A stretch of 64,000 bases of DNA from Fimbriimonadaceae bacterium (lineage in GTDB: Bacteria; Armatimonadota; Fimbriimonadia; Fimbriimonadales; Fimbriimonadaceae). The notes beneath the pieces are model-generated. The model was given only the letters and a program-made list of their open reading frames with translations, had not been told where the DNA came from and searched no databases. Below are positions 4,391 to 26,889 of this stretch, one piece after another (within the stretch, counting starts at the first letter, position 1; every line of letters begins with the position of its first letter). The position numbers and the translations under genes were made by a program. The DNA lies in assembly GCA_023957775.1 (NCBI GenBank), contig JAMLGR010000019.1, positions 1-64,000 on the forward strand, read 5' to 3'.

Positions 4391-4417
4391 TATACTATAT
4401 TTCAGCACGTGCTGAAA
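4391..4417 (+). promoter_or_regulatory. Putative -10 box and palindromic operator of the AbiE pair
   Basis: TATACT at 4391-4396 resembles a -10 box. It is followed at 4400-4417 by the perfect 18-bp palindrome TTTCAGCACGTGCTGAAA, which would cover the transcription start and abut the first ATG. AbiEi antitoxins are known to autorepress by binding inverted repeats in their promoter, so this is a good operator candidate. No convincing -35 box is seen. Confidence 0.55.
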
Positions 4418-5461: not shown

Positions 5462-6180
5462 GGGACGATGTTTCCTCGGGTTCGGTCAAGGCTGCGAGGA
5501 TCGCCCTGGCTGAGATTGCGGAGATTCTTGAGACCTACCCCGGCGCCGTTGTCGCCGGTGGCTTTGTCCCGTATCTTCTGATCCCACAGCACGTCGAGCC
5601 TCACGAGGGGACCGTCGACATCGATTTGGTGTTGGCCTTCGATCAGCCAGGTGGGGACGATGTGTTCACCCTTCACGAGATTCTGGAGCGGCGCTTGTTC
5701 CAACAGGATCCAGGGAAACCGTTTCGTTACACCAAAGGGATCGATCTCGACGGCGAAATCTATCCCGTCATGGTTGAGCTTCTTGGGGGAGGGAATCCAC
5801 CACCTGGAGGCCTGCGCCGCATCGGCACCGAAGACGTTCATTTGAGCATCATCAGCGGGATGGAGGTTGCACTCGAGGGTCCCCTCGTCGTCTCGATTCC
5901 AGACACCCCGAATCGGACGATCAGCGTGGCGTCCATCCCTTCCTTTCTGTCGATGAAGGCCTTTGCCCTCGAGCGGCGCGAGGAGCGCAAGAAGCCGAAG
6001 GACGCCTACGACATCGTGTACTGTCTTCGAAACTACGACGGAGGCGTCGGGGCGATCGCCCAGGTATTCCGCGAGAAACTGCCTCACGCGATCATCGCCT
6101 CTGCCGTCGAGTCGCTGGGTGTTTCGTTCGGTTCGACGGATGCCGTCGGCCCCGTCGCCTACGCCCCGCGGGGCCAATGA
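5458..6180 (+). CDS. AbiEii-like nucleotidyltransferase toxin, C-terminus frameshifted
   Basis: The product is 240 residues from ATG 5458, overlapping the antitoxin stop. The minimal nucleotidyltransferase core is visible: VVAGGFVPYLL followed by TVDIDLVL, where the acidic pair binds metal. DAYDIVYCLRNYDGG is the typical helical part that follows. The frame ends at 6180, but text that looks like the family's usual end (GANDDENGALMRREAFERVQRLLALLAEG) continues in another frame to 6268. This indicates an indel at about 6160-6175 that removes the natural C-terminus. The catalytic core is intact, so activity is possible but uncertain. Confidence 0.75.
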   Translation: MRDDVSSGSVKAARIALAEIAEILETYPGAVVAGGFVPYLLIPQHVEPHEGTVDIDLVLAFDQPGGDDVFTLHEILERRLFQQDPGKPFRYTKGIDLDGEIYPVMVELLGGGNPPPGGLRRIGTEDVHLSIISGMEVALEGPLVVSIPDTPNRTISVASIPSFLSMKAFALERREERKKPKDAYDIVYCLRNYDGGVGAIAQVFREKLPHAIIASAVESLGVSFGSTDAVGPVAYAPRGQ

Positions 6181-8727: not shown

Positions 8728-11700
8728 CTACCTGTTACCCGCTGCGGCCATCTCGACGTACCGACAAAGCGCGTTCACGAGCCGCACCTGTTGCGGGCTG
8801 CGGCAATCGACCTCCAACAGGCTCGGGCAGGCCACAACGACCACCGCGCACTTCGCCCGCGAGGTGGCCACGTTCAGCCGGTTGAGGCTGTAGAGGAAGC
8901 CCAAGCCGCGCGGCGCGTCCTCTGGCGTCGAGGTGGTCATCGAATAGATCGCGACCGGAGCCTCTTGGCCCTGGAACTTGTCGACCGTTCCCACCCGTGC
9001 CCCGGGGATCGCGGTTCGAATGGCGCCGACTTGCGCGTTGTAGGGAGCGATGATGAGGATGTCTTGCAGGCCGATGCGATGCGTGCGGCCGCCCTTGTCG
9101 GTCCAGGTGCCTCCCGAGACGAGCCGGCGCACCAACCGGGCGATGCAGTCCACCTCCTCTTCCGATGACGATTGATTGCCGGTGTGGGGAACCGGCACGA
9201 AATGCGGGCCGGCGCCCGTGAACTCGCTGCAGTCGTCCAGCCTTTGGACAGCCAGCGTTGGCTCGGCCCCAAGGCGCGAATCGTAGAACGCCTCGGACGT
9301 GAACGCGGCGATCGAGGGGTGGAGCCGATGGGTCTTGGGGAGGAAGATGCCGCGGTCTTCTGGAATCGTGGCACGCTCTTCGAGCAGGTGGTCCAGGGGC
9401 GAGACGCCGACGCCGGGAGGGTGGGTGCCCTTTTGAGGTCGCTCGAGCTGCTGGGGGTCTCCGATGAGCAAGAGACTCTTGGCCGAGTGCCCGATCGCCA
9501 GGACATCCGGCAGAGCGAGTTGGCTGGTTTCGTCCACCACCAGCACGTCCACCGCTTCGGCGAACTCCTCGCGTGCCCAAAGGAACTTCGTTCCGCCAAG
9601 GACGTCGGCCTCGCCTTGGATCGCCGCCAGGGCCTGGTCGTTGCCCGAGCACACCTCGATCCCGGGGTCCTCCTCGTCGCCCTTGCGAGCCACCTTCACC
9701 GTTGTGCCCGAAGCGCGGCCGGCAGAGAGCACCTCGTTGAGCAGCTTTCGGATCACCGGGTGGCTGTTGGCCGTGACCCCCACCTTCTTGCCCTGGGAAA
9801 CGAGATCGACGATGAGGCGCGCGCCCAGGTAGGTCTTGCCCGTGCCCGGAGGGCCTTGGATCGGCAACACCGTGTTGTCGAGTTGTCGGCAGACCGCCTT
9901 GGCCTCGGCGAGAAGATCTTCGATCCGGTCCGGGGAGAATTCGAACACTCCGTCCGTGAGGCGGGGGGGCCGGCGCAGGAGGAGCTCGCGAACGGCTTGG
10001 CATGGGCCTGGGCCCTCGATTCCGTGCTCGACGACCCACTGGGCGAGCCGCTCGAGGGCGTTCTCGAAGACCTTGGTATCGAAGAACGTGCGCAGTCCGT
10101 ACACGCCGATCGGGTGAAGGTGCTTCGACTTCCCGGTCTTCTTGATGTCGATCGTGCGTTCGGCCGCGTCGAGGGATTCCAACTTTCCCATGCGTCGATC
10201 GTCAGGGTCGTAGAGGTCTTCGTCCCGCAGTTGGCACTCCTGGACAGGGAAGCGGTAGCGGTGGATGGGCGCCTTGGCCGTACCGCCCACCTCGCCCACG
10301 AACTCGAGGTCGGCCAGAGCGCATCGCTCGTCTGCGTACTCGTCGTAGCCCAGGTCCTTGAGGCGGTAGCGCTCCCAAAACTCGACCTTGCTTTCCCGCC
10401 AGTAGTAGTCGAGGCTGTGCGCGAGGAGCCATTTGGCCTGCTGCTCTGCCGTGCGCTCCTTCTCCTCGACGGGAGTGCCTTCCGTGAGAGCCTCGATCAA
10501 GGTCTGGACGCGCACCCTTCGCTCGTCGAGTTCTGGAGTTTCGACCTCCTCGACCACCGGGCGGGGGATCTCCTGTCCCTTCTCGATCTGACCCGCGCGG
10601 ACCCTTTCGAGCCAATCGCGCAAGACGAGCGTCGAATCGCAGTCGTCGCGGTTGTAGCCCAGCACGGTTTCGCGCGTCGATGGGGCGACGGCCTCCAGTT
10701 CGCCCAGCTCGATGGCTCGTTCCAGATCCGCGCGGGCGAACCGCGCCTCCTCGAGGGGCACCTGGCGATCGAAGCCGAACACGGTCTCCAGGTCCTTGAT
10801 CGAGTAGCGCTCGACGCCGGCGATCATGCTCTCGCGCACGACCCGGTGGAGATCGACGAAAAGGTGGCTGCGCAGCCAGTCGTCGATGGTGTCCTCGCAC
10901 GTCGCGTACGCGCCCATGAGCCGCTTGAGGGCGGCGGGTTCGTACGGCGCGAAGTGGAAGATGTGCAGATCGGGGTGGCTGCGCCTGCGCCCCTCGACCA
11001 ACGCCACGAGCCACTCGAACGCCGCCTTCTCCTCGGATTCCGTGAAGGCCCATCGCCCTTCGTAGGCGGGGTTCCCGTCGGCGTTCTTGAACGAAACGCC
11101 GAACAGGTACTTGAGGCCGCGCAATCCCGCGAAGGGATCGCCCTCGAGGTCCAGGAACACGTCGCCCGGGCTCGGTTCTGGCAGTCGAGCCAGCCCCAGC
11201 CCGGGCTCTTGGGTGCGGAGCTGGTAGAGCGGCGTGTCCAGGCCGCGGCTCTCCACCTGGATGCGCGCCTGCTCTCGAATGCGCTCATAGGAGGCGACGG
11301 CACCTCGCGCTGGCTTGAAGGGGATGGGAAGCGGGAGCCCCGCCAAGGCGGTTACGGTGGCGACGTTGCGTTCGGTGAGTTCGCGTCGTTGCGCTCGGCT
11401 GATGCCGGCCACGAGGGACAGGTGGTCGTCGCGGCGCCACACTCGGTCGCACTCGGACCACCAGCGGCAGATCTCGCAGTGCGCGACCGGCTCGGGCTGG
11501 GTCTCCTCGGCCGGCTCGGAGGCGACCGCCGCGAGCAGGGAGTTCTTGGTCTGCCGGTAGTAGGCCATAGCATCGCTCGTGCGGTACCAGACGGGCTCCA
11601 TCGACAGGGGCGTGACGACGCCCGTTCGTTTGGGCAAGAGCCCTTGGATCGCGCCCACCAGCTCGGAGTAAACGCAGAGCTGGAGGATCGTCTCGGCGCG

Positions 11701-12123
11701 CGTCTCGCGGGCGAGTTTCGTGTCGATGACCTCGTACGACCAGTCGCCCAGCTCGCTGGGCGTGTCGGTCCGCAGCAGGATGTCCGCGCGCCCGTGCCAG
11801 GGGTGGGTGGCGAGGCTGGCCTGCACGATCACGGCGACGCCCGAGCGCATGAGCTCGACGGTGCGCTCGACCGCCGTTTTCGAGTCCAGGTCGGGGCTGA
11901 GTCTCACATGCTCCGCGCCCAAGGTGTCGCGAAGGTGCCGAAGATACGCCTCTTCGTGTTGGAACCCCCGCTGTTGCAGCGCCTCGAGGTTGGCGTCTCG
12001 CCACATGGGCGCTCTGATTTCCCCGCGGGCCGCCTTGAGATTGAGCTGCGTGAGATGCCGGCAGCCCAGATGGTTCGCGAGATCCGAGGCGGAGAACCGA
12101 AGGCCATCGGGACTCTGCTGCAT
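8728..12123 (-). CDS. TM0106-family RecB-like nuclease fused to SF1 helicase
   Basis: The product is 1131 residues. The N-terminus (to about 190) has a RecB-like nuclease core (GRADILLR, then YEVIDTKLAR) and a Cys cluster (CEICRWWSEC) that may hold an Fe-S site. The middle (about 330-530) is a DEDD/YprB-type 3'-5' exonuclease-like domain (VFLDLEGDPF, FHFAPYEPAAL, YNRDDCDSTLVL). The C-terminus is an SF1 helicase with Walker A GPPGTGKT, Walker B VLVVDETSQ, motif III GDPQQL, GTVDKFQGQE and LNVATSRAK. Such proteins act in DNA repair or phage defence. It is transcribed divergently from the PD-(D/E)XK-like gene at 12256. Confidence 0.85.
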   Translation of the reverse strand: MQQSPDGLRFSASDLANHLGCRHLTQLNLKAARGEIRAPMWRDANLEALQQRGFQHEEAYLRHLRDTLGAEHVRLSPDLDSKTAVERTVELMRSGVAVIVQASLATHPWHGRADILLRTDTPSELGDWSYEVIDTKLARETRAETILQLCVYSELVGAIQGLLPKRTGVVTPLSMEPVWYRTSDAMAYYRQTKNSLLAAVASEPAEETQPEPVAHCEICRWWSECDRVWRRDDHLSLVAGISRAQRRELTERNVATVTALAGLPLPIPFKPARGAVASYERIREQARIQVESRGLDTPLYQLRTQEPGLGLARLPEPSPGDVFLDLEGDPFAGLRGLKYLFGVSFKNADGNPAYEGRWAFTESEEKAAFEWLVALVEGRRRSHPDLHIFHFAPYEPAALKRLMGAYATCEDTIDDWLRSHLFVDLHRVVRESMIAGVERYSIKDLETVFGFDRQVPLEEARFARADLERAIELGELEAVAPSTRETVLGYNRDDCDSTLVLRDWLERVRAGQIEKGQEIPRPVVEEVETPELDERRVRVQTLIEALTEGTPVEEKERTAEQQAKWLLAHSLDYYWRESKVEFWERYRLKDLGYDEYADERCALADLEFVGEVGGTAKAPIHRYRFPVQECQLRDEDLYDPDDRRMGKLESLDAAERTIDIKKTGKSKHLHPIGVYGLRTFFDTKVFENALERLAQWVVEHGIEGPGPCQAVRELLLRRPPRLTDGVFEFSPDRIEDLLAEAKAVCRQLDNTVLPIQGPPGTGKTYLGARLIVDLVSQGKKVGVTANSHPVIRKLLNEVLSAGRASGTTVKVARKGDEEDPGIEVCSGNDQALAAIQGEADVLGGTKFLWAREEFAEAVDVLVVDETSQLALPDVLAIGHSAKSLLLIGDPQQLERPQKGTHPPGVGVSPLDHLLEERATIPEDRGIFLPKTHRLHPSIAAFTSEAFYDSRLGAEPTLAVQRLDDCSEFTGAGPHFVPVPHTGNQSSSEEEVDCIARLVRRLVSGGTWTDKGGRTHRIGLQDILIIAPYNAQVGAIRTAIPGARVGTVDKFQGQEAPVAIYSMTTSTPEDAPRGLGFLYSLNRLNVATSRAKCAVVVVACPSLLEVDCRSPQQVRLVNALCRYVEMAAAGNR

Positions 12124-13668: not shown

Positions 13669-14877
13669 ATGGCACTCACTCAAGAACAGCTAGGTCAACG
13701 GTTGCAGGACGCTCGGAAGAGCGTCGCCCTCACTCAGCAAGAAGTCGCTGACGGCCTTGGGTTGTCCCGTGAGTCGATCGCCCAGATCGAGGCGGGCTCT
13801 CGCAGCGTGAATTCGCTGGAGATCGTCCGGCTCGCCAGGCTCTATGGCCGTTCGCTCTCCTCCATCCTCCTCGAAGAAGACGCGCAGGAAGAGGAGCCCC
13901 TCACCGCTTTGTTCCGAATGCAGGACGCCCTCGCCGAGTCCCCCGGGCTGCGGGGCAAACTCGTCGAGTTCTCGAACATCTTCCAAGAAGCCCGCACCAT
14001 CGAGCGGCTGGTCGGCGACGAGCCGAGGCAGCTTCCGCCCGACTATGGCATCCGGGATCCCCGCAACAACTTCGAGGCATACGAGCAGGGGCAAGAGTTA
14101 GCCAAGCAGGAGCGACAGCGGCTTGGTCTCGGTTATGGCCCGATTCCCGACGTCGCCGAAGTGATCTCGATGCAAGGCATCTGGGCCGTGTCGGCGAAAA
14201 TGCCGGACATCGTCTCAGGGATCTGCCTCTTCCACTCGGCCATCGGGGCCGCGGTCATCGTGAACCAGACCCACAGCCGGAGCAGGCGAAGGTTCTCCTA
14301 TGCCCACGAATACGCCCACGTCCTGGCCGACCGCAAGACCCGAGTCGCGTCGGTCAGCAGCTCAAGCAACTCCAAGGAGTTGATCGAGCGACGGGCCAAC
14401 AGCTTCGCAAGCGAGTTCCTCATGCCTTCGCGCGGAGTCATCGACCTGCTTGACCGCATCGACAAGGGCGGGCCGAGCCGCGAGACCATGTGGCTCTTCG
14501 ACCCGGCCACCGAACTCGGTGAGGCGATTGAAAAGCGGAACGCGCCCGGCTCTCAAGAGATCGCCTTTCACGACGTCGCTTTCGTCGCCGACTGGTTCCA
14601 GGTCAGCTACGAAGCCGCCGCCTATCGGCTCAGCGACCTCGGCAAAGTCAACCGGGACAAGCTCCAGGTTCTCCTCGCCCAAAAGGAAGAAGGCCGACCC
14701 CTCATCGAAGACCGTGGGGAAGAGCAGCCGTTCCTCAACACTTATGTCCGCTGGCTCGCCCGAGAGGCTTACCGGAGGGAAGCGATCTCAGGTGGACGTT
14801 TCCGAGATTTTGTCGCCCTCGCCGGACTCGACCCCGACGACGAGTTTCAACGGGTGAGGGAGCACTTCGACGACTAA
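13669..14877 (+). CDS. XRE-family regulator fused to ImmA/IrrE metallopeptidase
   Basis: The product is 402 residues. Residues 1-65 are an XRE helix-turn-helix (VALTQQEVADGLGLSRESIAQIEAGSR). Residues about 135-260 are an ImmA/IrrE domain with FSYAHEYAHVLADR, the HExxH zinc site, and a downstream ERRANSFASEFLMP where the third ligand (E) lies. The C-terminal 130 residues are helical. Family members cleave or control repressors in phage and mobile-element regulons. The stop (TAA 14875-14877) directly abuts the ATG of the PIN-like gene, so the two are co-translated, probably as a toxin-antitoxin-like pair. Confidence 0.85.
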   Translation: MALTQEQLGQRLQDARKSVALTQQEVADGLGLSRESIAQIEAGSRSVNSLEIVRLARLYGRSLSSILLEEDAQEEEPLTALFRMQDALAESPGLRGKLVEFSNIFQEARTIERLVGDEPRQLPPDYGIRDPRNNFEAYEQGQELAKQERQRLGLGYGPIPDVAEVISMQGIWAVSAKMPDIVSGICLFHSAIGAAVIVNQTHSRSRRRFSYAHEYAHVLADRKTRVASVSSSSNSKELIERRANSFASEFLMPSRGVIDLLDRIDKGGPSRETMWLFDPATELGEAIEKRNAPGSQEIAFHDVAFVADWFQVSYEAAAYRLSDLGKVNRDKLQVLLAQKEEGRPLIEDRGEEQPFLNTYVRWLAREAYRREAISGGRFRDFVALAGLDPDDEFQRVREHFDD

Positions 14878-15381
14878 ATGGAGGAGTCGGTTCTCATCGC
14901 GGACGCATCGACGCTCCTCAATTTCTTGAGGGTGCGTCGTTTCGACTTGATGCAGGGGCTCGGCTACCGGATCCGGATAGTAGACGCCGTCTTCGAGGAG
15001 ATTCAGTCCGAACGGGAGCACCTCGAAGAACTGGTCAATGACGGCCATATCAGGACGCTGACCTTGGAAGGGAAGGCGATCACGGGCACCGTGGCCACAC
15101 TCCTCGGCCTGGGCCTCGGAAGTGGCGAATCGTTCTCGTTCGCCGCGGCCATCGAGTTCGAAGGAGCCGTCGCCATCGACGACCGAAGGGCGGTGAATCG
15201 AGTCAAATCGGTGAGCCCGAACCTTAAGATCCTGACCACTCCGGACATCGTCGTGGCCGGGATCCACTCCCAAATCATCAGCTTGGAGGAAGCCGACCTT
15301 TTGAAGGCCGACTGGGCTGAGAACCACCGATTTCGCCTTAAGCTTGTGACGTTTGCCGACGTGTTGGAGGGGCGTCGATGA
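14878..15381 (+). CDS. PIN-domain-like nuclease, putative toxin
   Basis: The product is 167 residues starting one base after the previous stop. The acidic pattern of PIN nucleases is visible: LIADASTLLNFL (first D), EEIQSER (E), LGLGSGESFSFAAA (E), and VAIDDRRAVNRV (D pair), followed by a third-region PDIVVAG. PIN domains are RNases. The arrangement XRE-ImmA/IrrE followed by a PIN-like protein recurs in bacterial conflict loci. Whether it is a toxin here is inference. Confidence 0.75.
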   Translation: MEESVLIADASTLLNFLRVRRFDLMQGLGYRIRIVDAVFEEIQSEREHLEELVNDGHIRTLTLEGKAITGTVATLLGLGLGSGESFSFAAAIEFEGAVAIDDRRAVNRVKSVSPNLKILTTPDIVVAGIHSQIISLEEADLLKADWAENHRFRLKLVTFADVLEGRR

Positions 15382-15417: not shown

Positions 15418-15879
15418 CTAAGGCAGCGCCTCGCGAACCTGTTCCACGCACGCGCCGAGGTCCTCCTTCAGCTCGCACTCCCAGAACGTGAGCACGCGCC
15501 ACCCCCGTGCCTCAAGTTCGAGAACGACCTGCGCGTGGCGAGCGACGTTGGTCTCGACCTTGGCCTGCCAGTAGGCCGTGTTGGTCTTCGGCAGGCGGTA
15601 GCGTCCGCACCGCTCGCACCGGTGCCAAAAGCACCCGTGGACGAACACCGCCACCCGCGCCTTGCCGAACGCGAGGTCCGGCTTTCCGGGCAGACGGGCT
15701 ACGTTCTTGCGGTAGCCGCGCGCGCCCGCCGCCCACAGGGCCCGGCGCAGCCGCACCTCGGTGGACGTGTCTTTGCCGCGGTTCGCCTGCATCGATTTGC
15801 GGGTGGACTCGGCGACGACGAGCGTTTCGCGCATCTCCGCGAACGAGTAGCGGGCCGAGGGCGGGCGTTTGCGTGCCAC
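15418..15879 (-). CDS. vsr: Very short patch repair endonuclease (Vsr)
   Basis: The product is 153 residues from GTG 15879. Conserved Vsr features are present: SFAEMRETLVVAESTRKSMQANRGKDTSTE at the start, then RKNVARLPGKPDLAF (catalytic D), VAVFVHGCFWHRCERCGRYRLPKTN (zinc-binding Cys/His), YWQAKVETNVARH, and the terminal GWRVLTFWECELKE. Vsr nicks at T:G mismatches that arise from deaminated 5-methylcytosine. Its usual partner, a C5-methyltransferase, is not adjacent but lies 6 kb away (21722-22915), where a second, ruined vsr copy is found. Confidence 0.9.
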   Translation of the reverse strand: MARKRPPSARYSFAEMRETLVVAESTRKSMQANRGKDTSTEVRLRRALWAAGARGYRKNVARLPGKPDLAFGKARVAVFVHGCFWHRCERCGRYRLPKTNTAYWQAKVETNVARHAQVVLELEARGWRVLTFWECELKEDLGACVEQVREALP

Positions 15880-15949
15880 GGTTGGATTCAGGATGGCAGA
15901 TGGCCGCGGCCCCCTTGCCAGGACCGGCGCGGCGTGCGATAATGAGGGT

Positions 15950-16144
15950 GCATCAAGAGCGAACCGCCAGTGGGTTCCGGCAACCGGGTGAGAGACGCCA
16001 CGGTGCCTCGAGGCTTCGGCCTCAAATGCGCGGGGAAACCCGAACGAAGGTCTCTGGAGCGTGATGCCCACGTCCCCTCTTGAAGGCGGACGTGGGCATT
16101 GTCGTTTCCACTCTTGGTGCGGATGTCCGAATGAGGTGAACCGC
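15950..16144 (+). promoter_or_regulatory. Candidate SAM-I/IV-class riboswitch, copy A
   Basis: P1 is GCATCAAGAG (15950-15959) with CTCTTGGTGC (16111-16120, one GU pair). A short hairpin GAACC/GGTTC (15961-15977) is followed by CCGGCAACC (15977-15985). Stem AGAGAC (15991-15996) pairs with GTCTCT (16050-16055) and encloses CACGGTGCC and a GAGGC-TTCG-GCCTC hairpin. A CGGGGAAACCCG hairpin follows. AUCAAGAG, CCGGCAACC and GGUGCC are hallmark SAM-riboswitch core strings. A 12-bp hairpin (ATGCCCACGTCC at 16063) is specific to this copy. GAGGTG lies 6 nt before the ATG of the ribbon-helix-helix gene. The class is inferred. Confidence 0.65.
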
Positions 16145-16336
16145 ATGAAGAAGCAACGACGATCCCAGGCGCGGGACGAGATCCTGCACATCCGCATCGA
16201 CTCCGAACTCAAGGAGGCGTTCTTCGAGCTGGCGGCGCGAAGGGGCCGTTTCGCGTCCGAGGTCCTGATCGAACTCATCGAAAGGGCTCTGGCCGAGGAC
16301 GCGCGATTGTGTACACAACTTTCGCGCCCCGCCTGA
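16145..16336 (+). CDS. Ribbon-helix-helix-like small protein
   Basis: The product is 63 residues with ribosome site GAGGTG. The sequence DEILHIRIDSELKEAFFELAARRG fits a beta strand followed by two helices, as in MetJ/Arc (CopG-type) DNA-binding proteins and antitoxins, and SEVLIELIERALAED forms the second helix. It lies entirely between the two structured RNA leaders and so has its own switch. It may regulate the following MoxR operon or be a lone antitoxin-like factor. Confidence 0.6.
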   Translation: MKKQRRSQARDEILHIRIDSELKEAFFELAARRGRFASEVLIELIERALAEDARLCTQLSRPA

Positions 16337-16350
16337 GCTACATTCAAACA

Positions 16351-16511
16351 GCATCAAGAGCGAACCCCTTGGGGTTCCGGCAACCGGGCGGGAGACGCCA
16401 CGGTGCCTAGAGGCGAGAGCCTCGATGTGCGGGGAAACCCGAACGAAGTCTCCGGAGCGGGAGGATCCCGTTCCCCCTCTTGATGCGGACGACCGAACGA
16501 GGTGAACCGCA
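16351..16511 (+). promoter_or_regulatory. Candidate SAM-I/IV-class riboswitch, copy B, before the MoxR-metK operon
   Basis: P1 is GCATCAAGAG (16351-16360) with a perfect partner CTCTTGATGC (16477-16486). P2 is GAACCCC/GGGGTTC (16362-16377), followed by CCGGCAACC. Stem GGAGAC (16391-16396) pairs with GTCTCC (16448-16453) around CACGGTGCC and a GAGGC-GAGA-GCCTC hairpin. Compared with copy A, the outer pair of this stem changes A-T to G-C and the apical loop TTCG becomes GAGA while pairing is kept. GAGGTG sits 7 nt before the TTG start at 16512. The downstream operon codes for S-adenosylmethionine synthetase, which supports SAM as ligand. Control is probably at translation, as no poly-U terminator is seen. 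Confidence 0.7.
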
Positions 16512-17933
16512 TTGAAGACCGTCGCCAGAACGACAAACGACCAACGACAAACGACAAACGACGCCCTCAAGGGCCTCGGGGTCTTCGGTTTCGCCGAGGC
16601 CGAGCTTCCCATCCTCGCGGCGCTGGTCACGGAAGACCCCCTGTTGCTCATCGGAAACTCGGGCACGGGGAAGACGTACCTGCTGAACTCGATCAGCGAA
16701 GCCCTGGGTCTCGAGCACCGGCACTACAACGCGTCGCTCGTGTCGTTCGACGACCTGGTGGGCTTCCCGTACCCGGACGACGAGAAGGCGAGCGTCCGGT
16801 TCCTCGAAACTCCCGCCACCGTGTGGGGCGCGGAGTCGGTGCTCATCGACGAGATCTCGCGCTGCCGACCCGAGCACCAGAACCGGTTGTTCTCGCTGAT
16901 CCACGAACGCAGGGTGCAGGGCATCGCGCTGCCTCGGCTGCGGTTCCGGTGGGCCGCCATGAACCCCTGCACCACCGACCACGCGATGGAGTACGCGGGC
17001 AGCGAGCCGCTCGACCAAGCGCTGGCCGACCGTTTCGCGCTGGTCGTGAACGTCGTGGATTGGGACGACCTCGAGGATGCGGACCGATTGGCCGTGGCGA
17101 ACCCCTCGGGCGAGGGGGCGGTGTCCGACGACGGGGGCGCGCTGGCAAGACGCCTTGCCCAGTTACACGCGGCGTTCGTCGAGCGCGTCGAGCGGTGCCC
17201 AGAGCCGATCGTCGCGTACGCCTGCGCGGCCGCGACGGCCTTGAACGACGCCGGAATCCGCATCTCGCCGCGCCGCGTGCGCCTGCTTGCGCGCTCCTTG
17301 CTCGCGGGGACGCTGGTGGCGGGCAAAGGGATCGACGAGACCGTGTTCCGCGCAATCCTGCGCGCGTCGATCCCCCACCGCGCTTGGGGCGCCGAGCCGT
17401 CTGCCGAGCACGTGTTGGCCGCGCACAGGCTTGCGTGGGACTCTGCGTGCCTCAAGGGAACGAGGAGGTGGATCCACGAGTTCCACCTCGAGAAGCGGCT
17501 GCCCAAGAAGGTCGCGCGGCTCCTCGGCGCGGCGCCGGACGCCGACTCGGGCACGCTGGCCCTCTGCCAGTGTCTGGCAACCGAGCGTCCGGCGCGCGCG
17601 GCCGTGCTGGCGTTCGCGCTGTTCCCCGCGGCGGTGCAGGGGAAGTTGCCGATCGGGGCCGAGGCGGTCAACGATCTCGGGAAGCTCGCCCAGCCGTTGC
17701 TGCAGGTGAACGCGGATATCTCGTGGCAGGAGAGGCTTTCCGAGAGCGGCACCCAACACCCCGAGTTCGCCCGGCTCGCCCCCCTGCTGGCCAAACTCGG
17801 CGGCGCGCGGCAAAGGCGTGCCAGGCAACTGTTCTACTGGGCGATCGCCAACGGCGTGGCCCTCGAAGATCCGGAAGGCCTCGAGCGCGATCTGGAGGCG
17901 TGCGTGGCGCTCGTGGGGAGATGCTTGAAGTGA
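16512..17933 (+). CDS. MoxR-type AAA+ ATPase
   Basis: The product is 473 residues from TTG 16512, placed by GAGGTG at 16499 and by the matching position of the ATG in copy A. It has Walker A GNSGTGKT (about residue 48), VSFDDLVGFPYPDDE, Walker B VLIDEISRC and sensor 1 WAAMNPCTT, as in MoxR/AAA_5 proteins. The C-terminal 220 residues are helical. Residues 5-19 (ARTTNDQRQTTND) come from a short tandem DNA repeat. MoxR ATPases work with VWA-domain partners to remodel or mature target proteins; that partner is two genes downstream. Its stop overlaps the next start. Confidence 0.85.
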   Translation: MKTVARTTNDQRQTTNDALKGLGVFGFAEAELPILAALVTEDPLLLIGNSGTGKTYLLNSISEALGLEHRHYNASLVSFDDLVGFPYPDDEKASVRFLETPATVWGAESVLIDEISRCRPEHQNRLFSLIHERRVQGIALPRLRFRWAAMNPCTTDHAMEYAGSEPLDQALADRFALVVNVVDWDDLEDADRLAVANPSGEGAVSDDGGALARRLAQLHAAFVERVERCPEPIVAYACAAATALNDAGIRISPRRVRLLARSLLAGTLVAGKGIDETVFRAILRASIPHRAWGAEPSAEHVLAAHRLAWDSACLKGTRRWIHEFHLEKRLPKKVARLLGAAPDADSGTLALCQCLATERPARAAVLAFALFPAAVQGKLPIGAEAVNDLGKLAQPLLQVNADISWQERLSESGTQHPEFARLAPLLAKLGGARQRRARQLFYWAIANGVALEDPEGLERDLEACVALVGRCLK

Positions 17934-18445
17934 ACGGCCCATACCCTCTGGGAACACTCCCCGCCTGCGTCCCACAAACCACAAACCACAAACCACAAAC
18001 CGTGGAATGCAACACCGGCGGCCCGCGGAGCCGCACCCGCACCGAGCACCTGCACGCCACGGTGTTGGGCCGGGGCGGCGGACTGCGGTGCCCCAAGTTG
18101 CGGCACGTCGGATTGAAGTTCGAGAAGGGCCACGATCCCGTCGAGCGGATGGAGGCGCTTCTCGAGCGGCTCGGATACAGGTCGGCGCTGCAGGCGCGCG
18201 AGGCCCTGGCCGACCGGCTTCCCGACGAGGTGTTCCTCGCCATGCCCGGCCGGCTTCGGCCCACGCTGGCCGTGAATCTGCGCCAGCCCCGTGCGGTGTT
18301 GACGGACGTGCTGGTCGAGGGCTTGGTGCTTGGCTTGTGCAGCGCCAACCTGTACGATCCCGGCCGCCCCGTTCTCTGGACGCGGGCCAGCCTGACGCGT
18401 AGGCTCGATCTGTTTTCCGTTGGGGGTTTCTATGAAGCTGACTGA
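17921..18445 (+). CDS. Hypothetical protein between MoxR and VWA genes
   Basis: The product is 174 residues from ATG 17921; GTG 17930, overlapping the MoxR stop as GTGA, is an equally good start. The N-terminus contains low-complexity text (PQTTNHKPQTVE) from a tandem ACAAACC repeat. The rest is helical (DPVERMEALLERLGYRSALQAREALADRLPDE) and ends GLVLGLCSANLYDP...LFSVGGFYEAD. I recognise no family. Overlaps with both neighbours (the next ATG is at 18432) suggest tight co-translation, so it is probably an adaptor or third subunit of the complex. Confidence 0.65.
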   Translation: MLEVNGPYPLGTLPACVPQTTNHKPQTVECNTGGPRSRTRTEHLHATVLGRGGGLRCPKLRHVGLKFEKGHDPVERMEALLERLGYRSALQAREALADRLPDEVFLAMPGRLRPTLAVNLRQPRAVLTDVLVEGLVLGLCSANLYDPGRPVLWTRASLTRRLDLFSVGGFYEAD

Positions 18446-19736
18446 ATCCCGGTTCCGCGCGCTCGTCGCCGAACTGTTGGACGAGAATCCCGTGGCGATC
18501 CGCCCGGTGCTCAAGATCTTGCGCATCCGGTTCACGGAAGAGGTGCCGACGCTCGCGGTGACTCTTGAAGAGCGCCCGAGACTGCTCGTGAACCTCGGGT
18601 TCCTCGCCTCGAACTGCGCCAGCGACGAGCACGTGAAGGCGTGCGTCGTGCACGAGTTTCTGCATGTGGTGCTTGGCCATACCGAGCGTTTCCGCCACAT
18701 GGACACCGGGCAGAACGTCGCGTTGGACGCCGTGATCAACGCCATCATCCATCGGACCATGGGTGTTCGGTACAGCGGCTTCTTCCTCAAGTTCTATGGG
18801 AAGGAGAAGGGCGTGTTTCGGATGCTTCGTCCCGCGAACTCGGCCGAGAGGCGGGGGCGGCGCCGGGAGCCGAGCCGTTTCGAGCAAGTGTGGGACGGCG
18901 TCTACGAGGGCCGTTTGGTGGCGGACGACATTCTGGGATTGGCGTGCAGGTTCCCCAATGGTGTCCGCACCCCTCTCTTGATCGGGAACCACGATGCGGC
19001 GGGGGGATCGCTGCCCAAAGCACTGGAGGACGCGGTCGGCGAGTCGATGCGCTCGATGAACGGGGACGGCATCTGGCGCTCCCCCAAGGACCGCGGGGTG
19101 GGCGCGTCGGCGTACGAGGCCGTGGTCGCGGCGCCGAACCCCGCGAAGGAGTTGTGGCGGCGCCGGACGTTCGAGGCGTTGCGGGAGTGCGTGGTGCCCG
19201 ACCGCCGCGCGCCGATCCGCGAGGTCGTCGAGAGCGAGTACCGCGTGCCGGTGCTGAGCGCGCGCGACCGCCGCGCGTTTCTTCGCACCTTGTGGTCGCC
19301 GATCATGCCCGATGCGGGATGGTGCTCGACCGAGCATCGACCCACCGGTTACGCGAACGTGTACCTCGACGTGTCGGGTTCGATGAACGCGGAGATGCCG
19401 GACATCATCGCGCTGCTTGCGAGTCTGAGGAGGGCGATCCGCATGCCGTTTTGGGCGTTCAGCGACGAGGTCGAGCCCGCGACGATCAGGGACGGCGCGC
19501 TGGTGACGCGCACGACGGGCGGCACGAGCATGCGGTGCGTGCTCGAGCACTTGGCGCACACGCGGCCGCCGGCGGCCGTGGTGGTGACCGACGGCTACAT
19601 CGAGGAGGTGGACCCCCGTGCGGTGCGCGCGTTGGGTTCGATGCGGCTCCGGGCGATCGTGACGCGGGACGGCAATCCCGGGTTGCTCGAGCGCGCGGGC
19701 ATTCCCACGACCCAGTTGGAGGAGTTGCCGAGATGA
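18432..19736 (+). CDS. Metallopeptidase-VWA protein (DUF2201-like)
   Basis: The product is 434 residues from ATG 18432. The N-terminal domain has VVHEFLHVVLGHTERF (about residues 75-90), an HExxH zinc site with a third His, as in the DUF2201 N-terminal peptidase-like domain. The C-terminal domain is a von Willebrand A fold with a complete MIDAS: DVSGSM (DxSxS), TGGTS (T) and TDGYIEE (D). Such proteins pair with MoxR ATPases as substrate binders or activated proteases. It overlaps the metK-like start by ATGA, so both are translated together. Confidence 0.8.
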   Translation: MKLTESRFRALVAELLDENPVAIRPVLKILRIRFTEEVPTLAVTLEERPRLLVNLGFLASNCASDEHVKACVVHEFLHVVLGHTERFRHMDTGQNVALDAVINAIIHRTMGVRYSGFFLKFYGKEKGVFRMLRPANSAERRGRRREPSRFEQVWDGVYEGRLVADDILGLACRFPNGVRTPLLIGNHDAAGGSLPKALEDAVGESMRSMNGDGIWRSPKDRGVGASAYEAVVAAPNPAKELWRRRTFEALRECVVPDRRAPIREVVESEYRVPVLSARDRRAFLRTLWSPIMPDAGWCSTEHRPTGYANVYLDVSGSMNAEMPDIIALLASLRRAIRMPFWAFSDEVEPATIRDGALVTRTTGGTSMRCVLEHLAHTRPPAAVVVTDGYIEEVDPRAVRALGSMRLRAIVTRDGNPGLLERAGIPTTQLEELPR

Positions 19737-20938
19737 TCCGATTCAGCGAGATGGTGTTGCCCGGGCACCCAGACAAGTTGTGCGACCAGATCGCGGACGC
19801 CGTGCTCGCCGAGGCGTACCGCGCGGACCCTCAGGCGTACGGCCAGATCGAGGTCGCAGCCTGGTGCGACGAGTTCTTCCTCACCGGCGGGATCGCGACC
19901 CGCAAGCCGCTGGCTGTGCCGTTGGAGGAGATCGTCCGGCGCGTGGGCCGGGAGGTGGGTTACACCGGGTCGAACGCGATCCAGGCGGATCGGTGGGTCG
20001 TGCGGGACGCGGTGTGCCGGGACGTGCGGGACCCGAGGGAGTGGACCGAGCACGTGAACGACCAGTGCCTAGTGGTCGGCTACGCGTTCGGCGATGCAAG
20101 GACGAGGTTCCTCCCGCCCGAGCACTATCTGGCGCACGTGTTCCGAGAGGCTCTGACGGCCGCGTGCCGGGAACCCCTCGCCCCTCCAGGGGTGAGGGCC
20201 AGGGGTGAGGGGTCCCTCCCGGGCAAGGGTGAGGGCCTCCAAGGCCAAGGCCCCGACGGCAAGCTCCTCGTCCGCATGCGCGAGGAGGGCGAGCGCTGGA
20301 CCCTCGAGCACGTGCTGGTGACGTTGCAGCAGCTGGAGTCGACCCCGTTCATGGACGTCTGCGCCGGGGTGGCAGAGTGCCTGAGCTTGGCCTACGAGGG
20401 GGTCCGCCGCGCCGACCCCCGCTGGCTCCGCCCCTGGGCGGAGGTCGACCTGCTCGTCAATCCCAACGGCCCTTTGATCAACGGTGGTCCGGACGGCGAC
20501 AACGGCCAGACGGGTCGAAAGCTTGCGATGGATTTCTACGGCCCCCGCGTCCCGCAGGGCGGAGGGGCGTTGAGCGGCAAGGACCTCACCCACATCGACC
20601 GTGCCGGATCGTATGCTGCACGCCGCGCCGCGGTGCAGGCGGTGTCCACCGGGGCTTCCGAGTGTCTGGTGAAGGTGGCCTACGCCCCGAACGTCGATGC
20701 GCCGCTCGACGTGGTGTGGGAGATGCGCGGGTCAGGGTCGCGCACGGTGAGGGAGGCGTTCGCCCACTCGTCGATTCGGCGGGAGGCGGCGGAGTGGGGC
20801 GCCTGCGTGGAGCGGGGGGTAGGGGATCACTTCTGGTCCGAGGCGCCGTGGAACGAGGCCCCGATGTGGGACGAGGCGGCGGGCAAGCTAGACGAAGGCG
20901 GGCTAAAGGCGGATTTGGGATATTGCCCGCGACGGTAG
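19733..20938 (+). CDS. metK: Divergent S-adenosylmethionine synthetase
   Basis: The product is 401 residues, close to the usual 380-400. It should make SAM from methionine and ATP. Conserved text is GHPDKLCDQIADAVL (residues 10-24), GGPDGDNGQTGRK, and GGGALSGKDLTHIDRAGSYAAR, the phosphate and metal-binding regions. The usual GAGDQG loop reads VNDQC, a change that may alter activity. An in-frame insertion of about 30 residues (APPGVRARGEGSLPGKGEG) from a GGGTGAGGG-type DNA repeat sits just before GPDGK. It is the last gene of the riboswitch-led MoxR operon. It may be a second MetK, because housekeeping copies are rarely in such an operon. Confidence 0.85.
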   Translation: MIRFSEMVLPGHPDKLCDQIADAVLAEAYRADPQAYGQIEVAAWCDEFFLTGGIATRKPLAVPLEEIVRRVGREVGYTGSNAIQADRWVVRDAVCRDVRDPREWTEHVNDQCLVVGYAFGDARTRFLPPEHYLAHVFREALTAACREPLAPPGVRARGEGSLPGKGEGLQGQGPDGKLLVRMREEGERWTLEHVLVTLQQLESTPFMDVCAGVAECLSLAYEGVRRADPRWLRPWAEVDLLVNPNGPLINGGPDGDNGQTGRKLAMDFYGPRVPQGGGALSGKDLTHIDRAGSYAARRAAVQAVSTGASECLVKVAYAPNVDAPLDVVWEMRGSGSRTVREAFAHSSIRREAAEWGACVERGVGDHFWSEAPWNEAPMWDEAAGKLDEGGLKADLGYCPRR

Positions 20939-20964: not shown

Positions 20965-21687
20965 TCATTCGATCGTGTCGAAAGGAGGGTTGTTTCTTGA
21001 ATCGTAGATCTCGGTTATCCGAGCGATCAAGGCTTCTAATGTCAGGACCTCTTCACCCTCGGGAGCACGGGCTCGCGGCGGAGCCTTGCCCACGTCGAAG
21101 AAGTCGCACAAACAGGTCTCGGAGTCATAGAGTCCGATGAAAAACCCTTCAAAAAGCTGTGGATCGTCGGACGGACCCCGTCTTTGAGTTCGATCGCGGA
21201 AGATACCGACCGCCCGCGCGAAGGACGACATCGTGGATTTGGAAGCCGCGTCGAGCGCAGACTCTGCGGGCAGGAAGAAGACCCCGACCAGCACGGCGTA
21301 AGGTTGCCGTGTGTGGTAGTCGGATGCTTCGGCCCGCAGTTCGCCGTCGATCCGACGGAAATTCTTCCCGAACTTGCCCCCCGTATCTGGGAAGTTCATC
21401 GTCTTGATCGATACGCCGAGGCCGAGACCGAGCTCCACAGTCGAGTAGTTCACATCGAGTTTCTTGAAACCCTTAGAGGTGCGTGCCTTCGACTCTTGTC
21501 CAGATCCATCCGGTGAGGGCACGATGCCAGCAAACGAGGGTCGCAGTCTGTTCGCGATCAGCTGGGCGCAAGATCGAGACAATCGCTCTGCGTAGTTCTT
21601 CTTGTCCTCGCGCGAAGAGCGAGTGGAGGGGCGCGGCGCCGCAGCAGCGAGCGCGTCCTTGAACTCAAAAAGGTCTTGCGGGCGCAT
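20965..21687 (-). CDS. Putative type II restriction endonuclease
   Basis: The product is 240 residues from ATG 21687; GTG 21702 is an alternative and longer starts overlap the methyltransferase. KLDVNYSTVELGLGLGVSIKT fits a PD-(D/E)XK core (acidic residues followed by SIKT). NDRELRAEA-like text (IDGELRAEASDYHTRQPYAVLVGVFFLP) follows, a string seen in restriction-type proteins. It lies directly downstream of a C5-cytosine methyltransferase on the same strand. The recognition site cannot be read from sequence. The assignment rests mainly on context. Confidence 0.65.
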   Translation of the reverse strand: MRPQDLFEFKDALAAAAPRPSTRSSREDKKNYAERLSRSCAQLIANRLRPSFAGIVPSPDGSGQESKARTSKGFKKLDVNYSTVELGLGLGVSIKTMNFPDTGGKFGKNFRRIDGELRAEASDYHTRQPYAVLVGVFFLPAESALDAASKSTMSSFARAVGIFRDRTQRRGPSDDPQLFEGFFIGLYDSETCLCDFFDVGKAPPRARAPEGEEVLTLEALIARITEIYDSRNNPPFDTIE

Positions 21688-21721
21688 CAAGTGCCAGACT
21701 ACTCGACCATGACCCCTGCCG

Positions 21722-22915
21722 CTACGACACAGCAAGAGAGTAACGGCTCTCAATGTACTGCCTCAAAGAAGGCAAGAACACCGGGTGGAATCGAAGCGAT
21801 GAGCGCTCGGCTCGTTCCAAGAACCCCTTCACCGCTCGTTCGGACAGAGGTTGCAGGTCGTCTTCTAGGAAGTCGGTGATAGGTTTGAACGCCGCAGTGC
21901 GAGGAAACACCGAAAGGTCGACAGCAAATCGTTGCCCACCGGAACCACAAGCCGCCCGCGGCCAGGGATCTCCTTTCGGCAGCGGTCGCTGCGTTCCGAG
22001 TGGGGGTCCTGGACACTGGAGTCTCTCGCCAATCCAGTTTGCGACAGGCACACTGACCGCGTTCCCGACCATTCGCCATCGCGACCGACTCTGACGTGGA
22101 GTAAGACAATCAACATCGGTCCAATCGGCCGGAAAGCCCTGGAGCCGTTCGACGTCCCGGATTCCGGGTGTCCCCACGAAGTCGCGCGATGGGAGCCAGA
22201 TTGCGGGCGGGGAGGGAATCCCCAGTCCGGATCCGCCCTTAAGCGTGGGAACAGAATCCTCGGCCCAACCCAGCCCACGCAGACCCTCGGTCCAGAAGAA
22301 CCCGTATGCCTTTGGGCACCTGAATGCCAGATCCTCGCTGGCCTCGTCGGCAAAGAGCACGGTTCTTGGATCTTCGGTTCGCGAGGCAAGGAGAAACACG
22401 CGCTGTCGTCGCTGTGGAAGGCCGAAGGACCTCGAGTCGACAACACGATAGGCCCAAGAGAATCCTAAACCCTCCAACGTCCCCACAAGTACGTTCATGG
22501 CCTCTCCCTTGCGCAAGCTCAGCATGAAGGGGACGTTCTCAAGGAGCAGGAACCGGGGACAGGTGGATCTTCGCTCGACAAGTCGAAGAACCTCGTAGAC
22601 CAGCGAAGAGCGTAGACCGCTCATTCCCATTGTGAGGCCCGCTTGGCTCAAATCCTGGCAAGGAAACCCTGCGGCGAGAACGTCGACCTTGGGAATCGAC
22701 CGAAGATCCCGTACGTCCGCGACCAACTTCACTTCCGGAAATCGCTTAGAAAGAACCGCTTGACACGCGGTGTCGTTCTCGCAGAGCAGCTCCGATACGA
22801 AACCCGACTGGGACAAACCAAGCTCGATTCCTCCGATTCCGGCGAACAGGCCGATGGCTCGGGGAGGCTCCGAGTGCTTTGCTTCGCCGGAGTCCGTCCC
22901 CTTCTTCATCGTCAT
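21722..22915 (-). CDS. dcm: DNA (cytosine-5-)-methyltransferase
   Basis: The product is 397 residues. C5-methylase motifs are in order: I AIGLFAGIGGIELGL (about residue 20), IV GFPCQDLSQAG with the catalytic Cys, VI LLENVPF, VIII QRRQRVFLLAS, and IX/X RLQGFPADWTDV with RWRMVGNAVSVPVANW. The target-recognition region is short, and about 110 unassigned residues follow motif X. It pairs with the nuclease at 20965 as a type II restriction-modification system, and a decayed vsr lies just upstream. Confidence 0.93.
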   Translation of the reverse strand: MTMKKGTDSGEAKHSEPPRAIGLFAGIGGIELGLSQSGFVSELLCENDTACQAVLSKRFPEVKLVADVRDLRSIPKVDVLAAGFPCQDLSQAGLTMGMSGLRSSLVYEVLRLVERRSTCPRFLLLENVPFMLSLRKGEAMNVLVGTLEGLGFSWAYRVVDSRSFGLPQRRQRVFLLASRTEDPRTVLFADEASEDLAFRCPKAYGFFWTEGLRGLGWAEDSVPTLKGGSGLGIPSPPAIWLPSRDFVGTPGIRDVERLQGFPADWTDVDCLTPRQSRSRWRMVGNAVSVPVANWIGERLQCPGPPLGTQRPLPKGDPWPRAACGSGGQRFAVDLSVFPRTAAFKPITDFLEDDLQPLSERAVKGFLERAERSSLRFHPVFLPSLRQYIESRYSLAVS

Positions 22916-25191: not shown

Positions 25192-26889
25192 CTAACGCGG
25201 CTCCCTCAGCATCCCCAAAGCCCCCTCCTCCCCAATCACCCACAAGTAATCCCGCGCCCGGGTCACACCCACGTACGCCAACTCCCGCATCCTCTGCGAG
25301 ACCACAAGCGTCCAGTCCAACTCCATCAGCACCACTACCGGGCTCTCCAGTCCCTTGAACTTCCTCACCGTGGACCAGCCGATGTCGCGTGGCTGCCGAT
25401 TCTCGTACGGCACGAGCGAGCGCCCTGCCACCTTCGGCACACCCTGCAACTCCGTCGAAGCGGCACCTTTGGGGGTCAGGACCACGATGTCGGCGGGCTC
25501 GATGTGCTGTTCGCGCAGGAGGCGGTCGAGGACCTCCTCCAACTTCTGCAGCTGGTCTTCGAAACTCGAGGCTGGGATCCAGCGCGGCGACTCGCCTTCG
25601 GGGCCCAACGCGGTGGGCGAAGCCCCCTCGAAGAACCGCAGCGCGGTCTTGTGGATCTGCTGCGTGTTGCGGATGTTCTCGGTGAGCGCGACCTCGGCGA
25701 AAGGGCCTGGCGGGGAAGGTAGGACTCCGCGATCGGGACCGTACAGCAGCTGGTTCGAGTCGGTGAATACGCACACCGACCCACCCGGCGCGAGCAGCAC
25801 GTCGACCAGCGCCCACCAGTCCGGCTCGAAGTCCTGCGCCTCGTCGACCACGATCGTGTCGAACCGGAGGTCGGGGTCCAGCGCGGCGGTCTCGAACGCC
25901 ACGTCGGGCAGGGAATCGTAGTAGTCGGATGCCCGCTCGGCGACCAGTGGGTTGAGCCGGAGTCCCGCCGCGCGCGCGAACAGCTCGCACGCGTGGTGGA
26001 AGTTCGTGGCGGTCAGGTTTTCGAAGTCGGCCAGGTCCTCGTGCAGCAGGGAGCCCAGCATCTCGTTGAAGCACAGCACCAGGACCCGCTCGCCGGCCCC
26101 CGCCCGCTTCACGGCCAGCCTCTTGGCGAGGAACGTCTTGCCCGAGCCCGCGCATCCGTGGACCAACAGGCGCTTGTTGGACGCGACCATGTCGAGCACC
26201 CGCCCCTGGCTGGCGGTCAAGCGGTCGAACTCGCGCTGGTGCTCGGCGATGACGATCGCCGCGTCCCGCCGTCCTTCCAGCGCGAGGCCGTGCAACCGCT
26301 GGAGGGCCCCGATGATCTCCTTCAAGCCCGGCCCGCGAAGCTCCGCCCCCTGCCTGCAGAACGCGAAGGCGCGTTCGATGCGCGCGCCGATCTCCCGCAG
26401 CCCCTCCGCATCGAACACGATCTCGGGCGGTCCGTCGCCGGGGAGGTCGGCGGCTCGAACCGCGCAGTGGGGGAAGCACACCGCATGGAACACGCGCAGA
26501 CTGCCGGACTGCGAGACCATCTTGCGGAGTTGGCGCTCCAGGCCGTAGCTCGTATCGCGGGCCTGCCGGAACGGGTCCTTGATCGTGCTGACGTGGCCCG
26601 AGCGACTGGTCGAGCTCCACTCCCGGGTGTCGGGGTCGTACGCGACGATGCCACCCTTGACCTCGACGACCATCACGCCCAGGTCCGGGTGGCACACCAC
26701 GAAGTCCGCCTCGCGATCCTGCGCCGGGTCGCCGCGCCGAGTCGCATCCTTCCACGCGAGGGAGTGGAACACGGTGTACCGGTCTTCCAGCGAGTCGCGG
26801 AGGGCGTCGAACACCGCAGCCTCCGCCTGGAGGCCTTCGTTCTCCCGCACGTCGGCGGGGAGTTCGGCGGGTCGCATGGTTGGCATCAC
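25192..26889 (-). CDS. NERD-domain protein fused to UvrD-like helicase
   Basis: The product is 565 residues. Residues 20-110 form a NERD nuclease-related domain (EADFVVCHPDLGVMVVEVKGG, the D...ExK pattern). Residues 220-560 form a UvrD/SF1A helicase: Walker A GCAGSGKT, Walker B IVVDEAQDF, FTDSNQLLY, and the C-terminal AYVGVTRARDYL. It is shorter than a full UvrD. NERD-helicases are recurrent members of defence islands and DNA repair loci. It is the last gene of a minus-strand run that begins with the DPRC-repeat gene. Confidence 0.88.
   Translation of the reverse strand: MMPTMRPAELPADVRENEGLQAEAAVFDALRDSLEDRYTVFHSLAWKDATRRGDPAQDREADFVVCHPDLGVMVVEVKGGIVAYDPDTREWSSTSRSGHVSTIKDPFRQARDTSYGLERQLRKMVSQSGSLRVFHAVCFPHCAVRAADLPGDGPPEIVFDAEGLREIGARIERAFAFCRQGAELRGPGLKEIIGALQRLHGLALEGRRDAAIVIAEHQREFDRLTASQGRVLDMVASNKRLLVHGCAGSGKTFLAKRLAVKRAGAGERVLVLCFNEMLGSLLHEDLADFENLTATNFHHACELFARAAGLRLNPLVAERASDYYDSLPDVAFETAALDPDLRFDTIVVDEAQDFEPDWWALVDVLLAPGGSVCVFTDSNQLLYGPDRGVLPSPPGPFAEVALTENIRNTQQIHKTALRFFEGASPTALGPEGESPRWIPASSFEDQLQKLEEVLDRLLREQHIEPADIVVLTPKGAASTELQGVPKVAGRSLVPYENRQPRDIGWSTVRKFKGLESPVVVLMELDWTLVVSQRMRELAYVGVTRARDYLWVIGEEGALGMLREPR

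Follow-up and report, generated by a model that had tools for sequence, protein, structure and literature searches.

Pairs of a MoxR-class AAA+ ATPase and a protein with a von Willebrand factor A (VWA) domain are widespread, and for few of them is a client or a trigger known. NorQ/NorD, a MoxR AAA+ ATPase with its VWA partner, functions in FeB insertion into nitric oxide reductase (PMC9976466, PMC13036017), and CbbQ/CbbO is a rubisco activase, which clears inhibited active sites (PMC4660213). In the MoxR-vWA-centric ternary conflict systems the pair is joined by a third component (VMAP, iSTAND, FtsH or a beta-propeller) and by effector domains (Kaur et al. 2020, PMC7159879). Here we describe an operon of a Fimbriimonadaceae bacterium for which the genome suggests both a trigger and a client: S-adenosylmethionine (SAM), sensed through several riboswitch classes, is the suggested trigger, and MetK is the likely client class. 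The operon encodes a MoxR ATPase, a protein designated P2, a VWA protein and a divergent paralogue of SAM synthetase, designated MetK2. The analysed stretch of 64,000 nucleotides, in the following referred to as the window, lies on contig C19 (JAMLGR010000019.1) of the 3.5-Mb host genome (GCA_023957775.1), and the relatives in our genome collection are Fimbriimonadaceae and Armatimonadota. Loci with L-numbers are cassette loci or other loci extracted from the genomes of relatives. The initial annotation of this DNA knew of no described system with such a makeup; likewise, we found no paper describing the operon and none combining MoxR with a SAM riboswitch or with a methionine adenosyltransferase (MAT). 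The features of the locus are the following.

15945–16058, plus strand: RS1, first SAM-I/IV riboswitch aptamer (RF01725, 51.9 bits, above the gathering score)
16111–16120, plus strand: candidate anti-P1 strand CUCUUGGUGC, complement of the 5′ strand GCAUCAAGAG of the RS1 aptamer (15950–15959) with one G–U pair
16145–16336, plus strand: gene after RS1 for a 63-aa ribbon-helix-helix (RHH) protein, CopG/RelB-like (PF01402, E 0.0014, slightly under the cut-off)
16346–16457, plus strand: RS2, second SAM-I/IV aptamer and leader of the four-gene operon (RF01725, 56.7 bits)
16477–16486, plus strand: CUCUUGAUGC, perfect 10-nt complement of the aptamer strand at 16351–16360
16499–16504, plus strand: GAGGTG, ribosome-binding site of the MoxR gene, read from the sequence
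16512–17933, plus strand: MoxR-class AAA+ ATPase, 473 aa, TTG start (Pfam AAA_5 3.6e-9, AAA_3 7.8e-8)
17930–18445, plus strand: P2, undescribed family, 171 aa (no Pfam, NCBIfam or PADLOC match)
18432–19736, plus strand: protein with a zincin-like HExxH domain and a VWA domain (DUF2201 type), 434 aa (conserved motifs)
19733–20938, plus strand: MetK2, divergent SAM synthetase paralogue, 401 aa (Pfam S-AdoMet_synt N and C)

The MoxR, P2, VWA and MetK2 genes overlap one another. This layout had been read from the open reading frames (ORFs) in the initial annotation and is confirmed by coordinates and Pfam, with P2 comprising 171 instead of 174 residues. A canonical metK is present elsewhere in the host genome (G000:C7:111715).

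A SAM-type riboswitch had also been proposed for the leader, and covariance models did detect it. RF01725 matched RS2 with 56.7 bits (gathering score 41.1, E 1.1e-6 for the window) and, with 51.9 bits against the same gathering score, RS1, a second copy that had not been named before. The best covariance model at both sites is SAM-I/IV and not SAM-I. These two riboswitches are the only elements above cut-off in the Rfam scan of the window; the rest of the host genome has no further match to RF01725, and RF00162 matched nowhere. RS1 and RS2 form a direct repeat with 87–100% identity by segment, a duplication of about 400 nt that spans the aptamer and the ribosome-site region, and a 44-nt repeat is conserved between the candidate anti-P1 region after RS1 and the RS2 platform. 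The RHH-like ORF sits between the two riboswitches, and its start codon has the repeated GAGGTGAACCGCAT context.

The RS2 aptamer strand GCAUCAAGAG (16351–16360) is perfectly complementary over 10 nt to CUCUUGAUGC (16477–16486), the 3′ part of which (AUGCGG) can alternatively pair with CCGCAU (16507–16512) at the TTG start codon. Forced folding of RS2 gave −88.2 kcal/mol for the anti-P1 state and −86.7 kcal/mol for the aptamer P1 helix together with the start-sequestering hairpin. RS1 shows the same arrangement with one wobble pair. From these mutually exclusive helices the RS2 platform is predicted, with good support, to repress translation in a SAM-dependent manner (SAM-OFF). With plentiful SAM the aptamer would keep its P1 helix, and the downstream AUGCGG would pair with the start region and block translation; at low SAM the 5′ strand of the aptamer would pair with CUCUUGAUGC, and the ribosome site would be freed.

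An alignment of the VWA protein was scanned against the genomes of 84,980 species, yielding 204 confirmed stretches with VWA relatives, from which 79 loci were kept. By genome labels they come from about 15 phyla, including Elusimicrobiota, Acidobacteriota, Verrucomicrobiota, Bacteroidota, Pseudomonadota, Myxococcota, Spirochaetota and Actinomycetota, with some names of metagenome-assembled genomes being plainly unreliable. The order MoxR-P2-VWA-MetK2 is found in about 60 loci, mostly with overlaps of 4–14 nt, so that the linkage of MetK with MoxR-VWA, for which a search in related genomes had been proposed, is conserved. The distances of the four proteins covary (Spearman 0.72–0.90), and in none of 500 permutations was the observed value reached for any pair. 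Among 201 related genomes, four besides the host have close VWA homologues; in all four MetK2 follows immediately 3′ of the VWA gene and an RF01725 match lies 5′ of the cassette, three over the cut-off and one at 40.4 bits. Within the phylum the cassette is sporadic (5 of 291 genomes), and P2 occurs in the same five genomes, always inside the cassette. In the tree, MetK2 of two Fimbriimonadaceae loci (L038, L039) nests with a proteobacterial MetK2 and apart from that of the window. The cassette moves horizontally, and at least two acquisitions occurred within this one family.

Several loci deviate from the common order. A canonical-type MetK occupies the first position in five Opitutae-like genomes and one Bacteroidia bin, where no MetK2 was seen, while L057, L058, L059 and L068 have both kinds. 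The constant part of the cassette is thus the trio MoxR-P2-VWA, which is usually accompanied by a MetK, be it MetK2 or the canonical type. This companionship is our main ground for proposing MetK as the client. The small genes between tandem riboswitches (the RHH gene of the window and ORFs of L106, L108 and L114) are not one family by eye, so there is no fixed extra component. An ORF (f4) present in nine Verrucomicrobiota loci might have corresponded to the window's RHH gene but was rejected by sequence.

SAM riboswitches over the Rfam cut-offs precede the cassette in 27 of 58 scanned loci and belong to SAM-I/IV, SAM-I or SAM-II (SAM_alpha). All 34 matches are on the coding strand and 5′ of the cassette; in 23 loci the riboswitch is less than 600 nt from MoxR or slightly inside its extended ORF. 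Tandem copies are present in the window, L069, L106, L108, L109, L114 and L117. A scan at a lower threshold covered nine loci without a match at the gathering score or not previously scanned permissively and gave sub-threshold matches in five of them: SAM-II in L049 (two) and L089, SAM-I in L060, SAM-I/IV in L096 and a weak one in L080. In the host family RF01725 matches were obtained in 5 of 5 cassette genomes versus 2 of 80 genomes without cassette (p 6e-7). SAM-I/IV and SAM-I form one Rfam clan and SAM-II is listed without clan; thus, at least two independent aptamer origins serve the operon. The proposal that the machine responds to the SAM level thereby gains strong comparative support, as different aptamers stand before the same genes in different lineages, and the operon is very likely under SAM control. 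Further SAM-I/IV riboswitches of Fimbriimonadaceae lie distant from the cassette before small uncharacterised genes (L040 2493–2602, L041 4958–5055, L148, L149), and an ORF near the match in L148 has a GIY-YIG-like stretch.

The MoxR protein has an AAA_3 match above cut-off (7.8e-8), and its Walker A motif GxxGTGKT and residues D113-E114 are invariant in 32 relatives. Its profile matched only Midasin among PDB sequences, and in PADLOC only weak AAA matches were obtained. In the VWA protein the HExxH motif, H82, D98 and N102 are each kept by at least 56 of 57 relatives, and the metal-ion-dependent adhesion site (MIDAS) is complete (D312/S314/S316/T364/D386 in at least 56 of 57 sequences). The window protein matches DUF2201_N, DUF2201 and VWA_CoxE weakly, below the Pfam cut-off (PF13203, PF09967); DUF2201_N matches 27 of 34 members (best 5e-8), making DUF2201 the nearest family. 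The VWA profile found nothing credible among PDB sequences. P2 has a conserved yet disordered N-terminal NxGGPxSRxR motif, an alpha/beta core and a conserved FY near the C-terminus, and the core is confidently folded in the AlphaFold2 model (pLDDT 82). It had no match in Pfam, NCBIfam or PADLOC and no sequence relative in PDB, and on this basis it is an undescribed protein family. Structure searches of its model against PDB gave nothing at E ≤ 0.001 (Foldseek) or Z ≥ 2 (VIA-align), which is not proof of a new fold. Tandem repeats of 7 nt at 16529–16562 and 17972–18001 lie within the N-termini of MoxR and P2, and close relatives do not have the insert. In L038 (6169–7564) the cassette MoxR gene (G083) is split over two frames by a frameshift or an assembly error. 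The VWA gene of L086 and a gene for a J-domain protein (9470–10699) overlap, and a 50-aa ORF after MetK2 in L036 (12525–12677) may be a J-domain remnant.

MetK2 matches the N- and C-terminal S-AdoMet_synt domains of Pfam above cut-off and the central domain weakly, and with 150.7 bits it fails the cut-off of the MetK equivalog TIGR01034 (309.4). Its AlphaFold2 model (mean pLDDT 87.5) has the MAT fold, with Z of about 40 over about 350 residues to MAT structures. In MAT enzymes H14 is the catalytic acid, E55 and D238 contact the amino group of methionine, Q98 and K269 the carboxylate and I102 the side chain (PMC3853416, PMC1282579). We compared up to 61 MetK2 sequences with 12 canonical MetKs, some of them from cassette fronts. 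The residues for ATP, triphosphate and metal (H14, D16, K17, E42, D118, D163, K165, D238, R244, K245, K265, D271) are invariant or nearly so in MetK2. E55 is mostly replaced by G, A or S, Q98 by many residues, I102 by P (58 sequences), K269 by H (54 of 57) and I302 by P (57), while the canonical proteins retain the methionine contacts with few exceptions. Some two dozen further positions are near-invariant and specific for the MetK2 clade. D238, the amino-group contact, is retained, and L051 MetK2 is one member that keeps E55 and Q98. In the tree the two kinds split with full support, and the branches to either side of the midpoint root are about 2.5 changes per site long. By residues and tree alike, MetK2 is a deep clade apart from normal SAM synthetase with a rebuilt acceptor pocket. 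The earlier assignment as SAM synthetase had overlooked the loss of most methionine contacts, and because of it the name may not describe the activity of MetK2. A 13-nt repeat (20186–20213) within the central part of MetK2 is an insert absent in close relatives.

We propose that the cassette has spread horizontally and is an operon for SAM starvation, its MoxR-VWA machine acting on behalf of a dedicated adenosyltransferase; this reading could well be correct and may equally prove wrong. MoxR and the VWA protein would form a remodelling machine of the NorQD/CbbQO kind, with P2 as adaptor or substrate and MetK2 as the dedicated client or partner; in the Opitutae-like genomes this part would be played by the second, canonical-type MetK at the operon front. 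These assignments have moderate support. MetK2 would keep the chemistry from ATP to triphosphate and, in SAM shortage, make SAM with altered methionine binding or a related adenosylated product, whereby methyl-donor capacity would be restored or replaced. Several observations weigh against this proposal. The two folds behind the SAM-OFF logic differ by only 1.5 kcal/mol, and about half of the scanned loci have no riboswitch over the cut-off. In L073 and L082 the trio is present, no MetK2 was detected anywhere in the genome, and L082 still has a riboswitch, so MetK2 is not indispensable. A canonical-type MetK exists beside MetK2 in every cassette genome examined, for which reason extra SAM synthesis is not obviously needed, and the loss of methionine contacts speaks against simple SAM production. 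In addition, no gene fusion or predicted complex joins MetK2 to MoxR or the VWA protein.

The surroundings of the operon hold further genes. The helicase genes at 8728–12123 (RNase_H_2 and AAA_11/AAA_12 helicase, PADLOC MkoA 2.5e-41) and 25192–26886 (NERD-UvrD) mark the window as an island with many defence-type genes. It also contains an AbiEi-like antitoxin with an AbiEii-like nucleotidyltransferase (4409–6180, type IV toxin-antitoxin) and, at 13669–15381, a gene for an XRE-ImmA/IrrE metallopeptidase that resembles RmrA/CapP in PADLOC, with a 167-aa gene of no family behind it. A Vsr endonuclease gene (15418–15867, minus strand) flanks the operon on one side, and a C5 DNA methylase gene with an adjacent 262-aa ORF without assignment (20965–22915, minus strand) on the other; the operon may thus lie inside a split restriction-modification locus. 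Three RHS-like copies with the motif MxVRYTxINGxIxAEKRxGxRxxYSSDALGSTVxLYSG (240–1049, 1787–2014, 3198–3470), two of them short, resemble displaced Rhs tips, and the copy at 240–1049 has no Pfam match. In Verrucomicrobiota cassettes a small conserved, integrase-arm-like HHLWNNxGTWW protein is recurrently encoded by an ORF of about 225–280 nt 5′ of MetK or MoxR (L086, L094, L095, L096, L100, L101, L103, L105, L120).

According to a possible, though doubtful, explanation MetK2 is no SAM synthetase and transfers the adenosyl group of ATP not to methionine but to some other thioether or to a peptide, for instance P2, yielding a SAM-like cofactor or signal. Repression of the operon by SAM would then reflect a product that replaces SAM or is required at low SAM. 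The kept catalytic and triphosphate residues beside the changed methionine contacts, the clade-specific positions, the long branches and the separate canonical MetK agree with such an activity, as does a nucleosidase-like gene of the phosphorylase superfamily in the L059 operon. Nevertheless, the retained D238 and the L051 protein argue against it, positions of the gating loop are hard to align, and archaeal MATs have no equivalents of E55, Q98 and K269 and hold the methionine carboxylate by His and Asn (PMC3853416). By this precedent the conserved His of MetK2 could hold the carboxylate, and MetK2 may use methionine. In a bolder and rather improbable version MetK2 would be a new adenosyltransferase split from SAM synthetase, which takes adenosine from ATP and joins it to something other than free methionine, and the SAM-repressed MoxR, VWA-zincin and P2 proteins would be required to mature it or to deliver its substrate; the joint product would replace SAM or signal its shortage, and the system would be exchanged horizontally among many phyla.

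The initial annotation had suggested a response to a phage SAM hydrolase or another attack. An anti-phage or anti-restriction-breaker module, in which a phage SAM lyase or hydrolase depletes SAM, the riboswitch registers the loss and the four proteins restore SAM or kill the cell, is possible but unlikely in our view. A defence role is conceivable, since the SAM lyase of phage T3 cleaves SAM and binds MetK, defeating BREX (PMC11580459), and the sporadic occurrence with repeated acquisition and the C5 methylase, Vsr, XRE-ImmA, AbiEi/AbiEii and NERD-UvrD genes of the window would suit it. Defence-type neighbours elsewhere, in line with the earlier suggestion to look for them, are type IV restriction genes (L083, L091), a Gabija-like GajB (L087) and an SNF2 protein, ZorD/DpdE-like (L103); L082 has a C5 methylase, and L037 has methylase-like genes and a Type ISP-like neighbour. 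Most cassettes have no such neighbour by the searches made, a clear one being found at only about 7 of about 65. In PADLOC 144 neighbours hit 204 models, compared with 21 for 91 control genes mostly from the same genomes, but these counts refer to models and are inflated by overlapping GajB-family models. PADLOC has no family for P2, the VWA protein or MetK2, and no effector domain was recognised in the cassette. The VWA gene had no relative among 125 pattern matches from 2.9 million viral contigs, as searched, and no match in 72,556 plasmids; MetK matches of plasmids and phages were all below 60% identity, about 28–34% among the matches listed, and were ordinary MetK wherever a function was annotated. 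Moreover, a metabolic operon would likewise be induced by low SAM. Very improbable is a reading in which the riboswitch regulates a surplus metK by ordinary feedback and MoxR, P2 and VWA are chance passengers. It is favoured by the common position of SAM riboswitches ahead of metK and by the obvious duplication of the riboswitch at the locus; however, the four genes are linked over about 15 phyla with co-divergence, MoxR and not metK is the gene behind the riboswitch, L082 combines a riboswitch with the trio and no MetK2, and P2 is restricted to the cassette among the 291 genomes. Simple hitchhiking of MoxR and VWA was rejected because of the conserved linkage.

The locus points to an undescribed protein family and to a deep uncharacterised branch, with a rebuilt substrate pocket, of one of the most conserved metabolic enzymes. 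Should the operon respond to a loss of SAM, it would act as an emergency system for low SAM and have relevance to SAM-destroying phages as well. Like NorQ/NorD and CbbQ/CbbO, the cassette has an adjacent MoxR-class ATPase and a VWA partner with intact MIDAS, and those known pairs serve one target enzyme. Unlike them, its VWA protein carries a conserved HExxH zincin-like domain of the DUF2201 type, and the pair is accompanied by the constant P2, a nearby MAT paralogue and often by SAM-riboswitch leaders. With the ternary conflict systems it shares the composition of MoxR, VWA and a constant third protein, but no effector or signalling peptidase was recognised, the bpMoxR model reaches the cassette MoxR only with E 0.0057, below cut-off, and PMC7159879 mentions neither MetK nor a riboswitch. 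MetK2 resembles bacterial MetK in fold (Z about 40) and ATP/triphosphate residues and differs from it by the replacement of E55, Q98, I102 and K269 in most members and by its separate deep clade. Finally, RS1 and RS2 are full-length RF01725 members above the gathering score, and they stand before a MoxR-VWA operon and an RHH-like gene instead of methionine biosynthesis genes.

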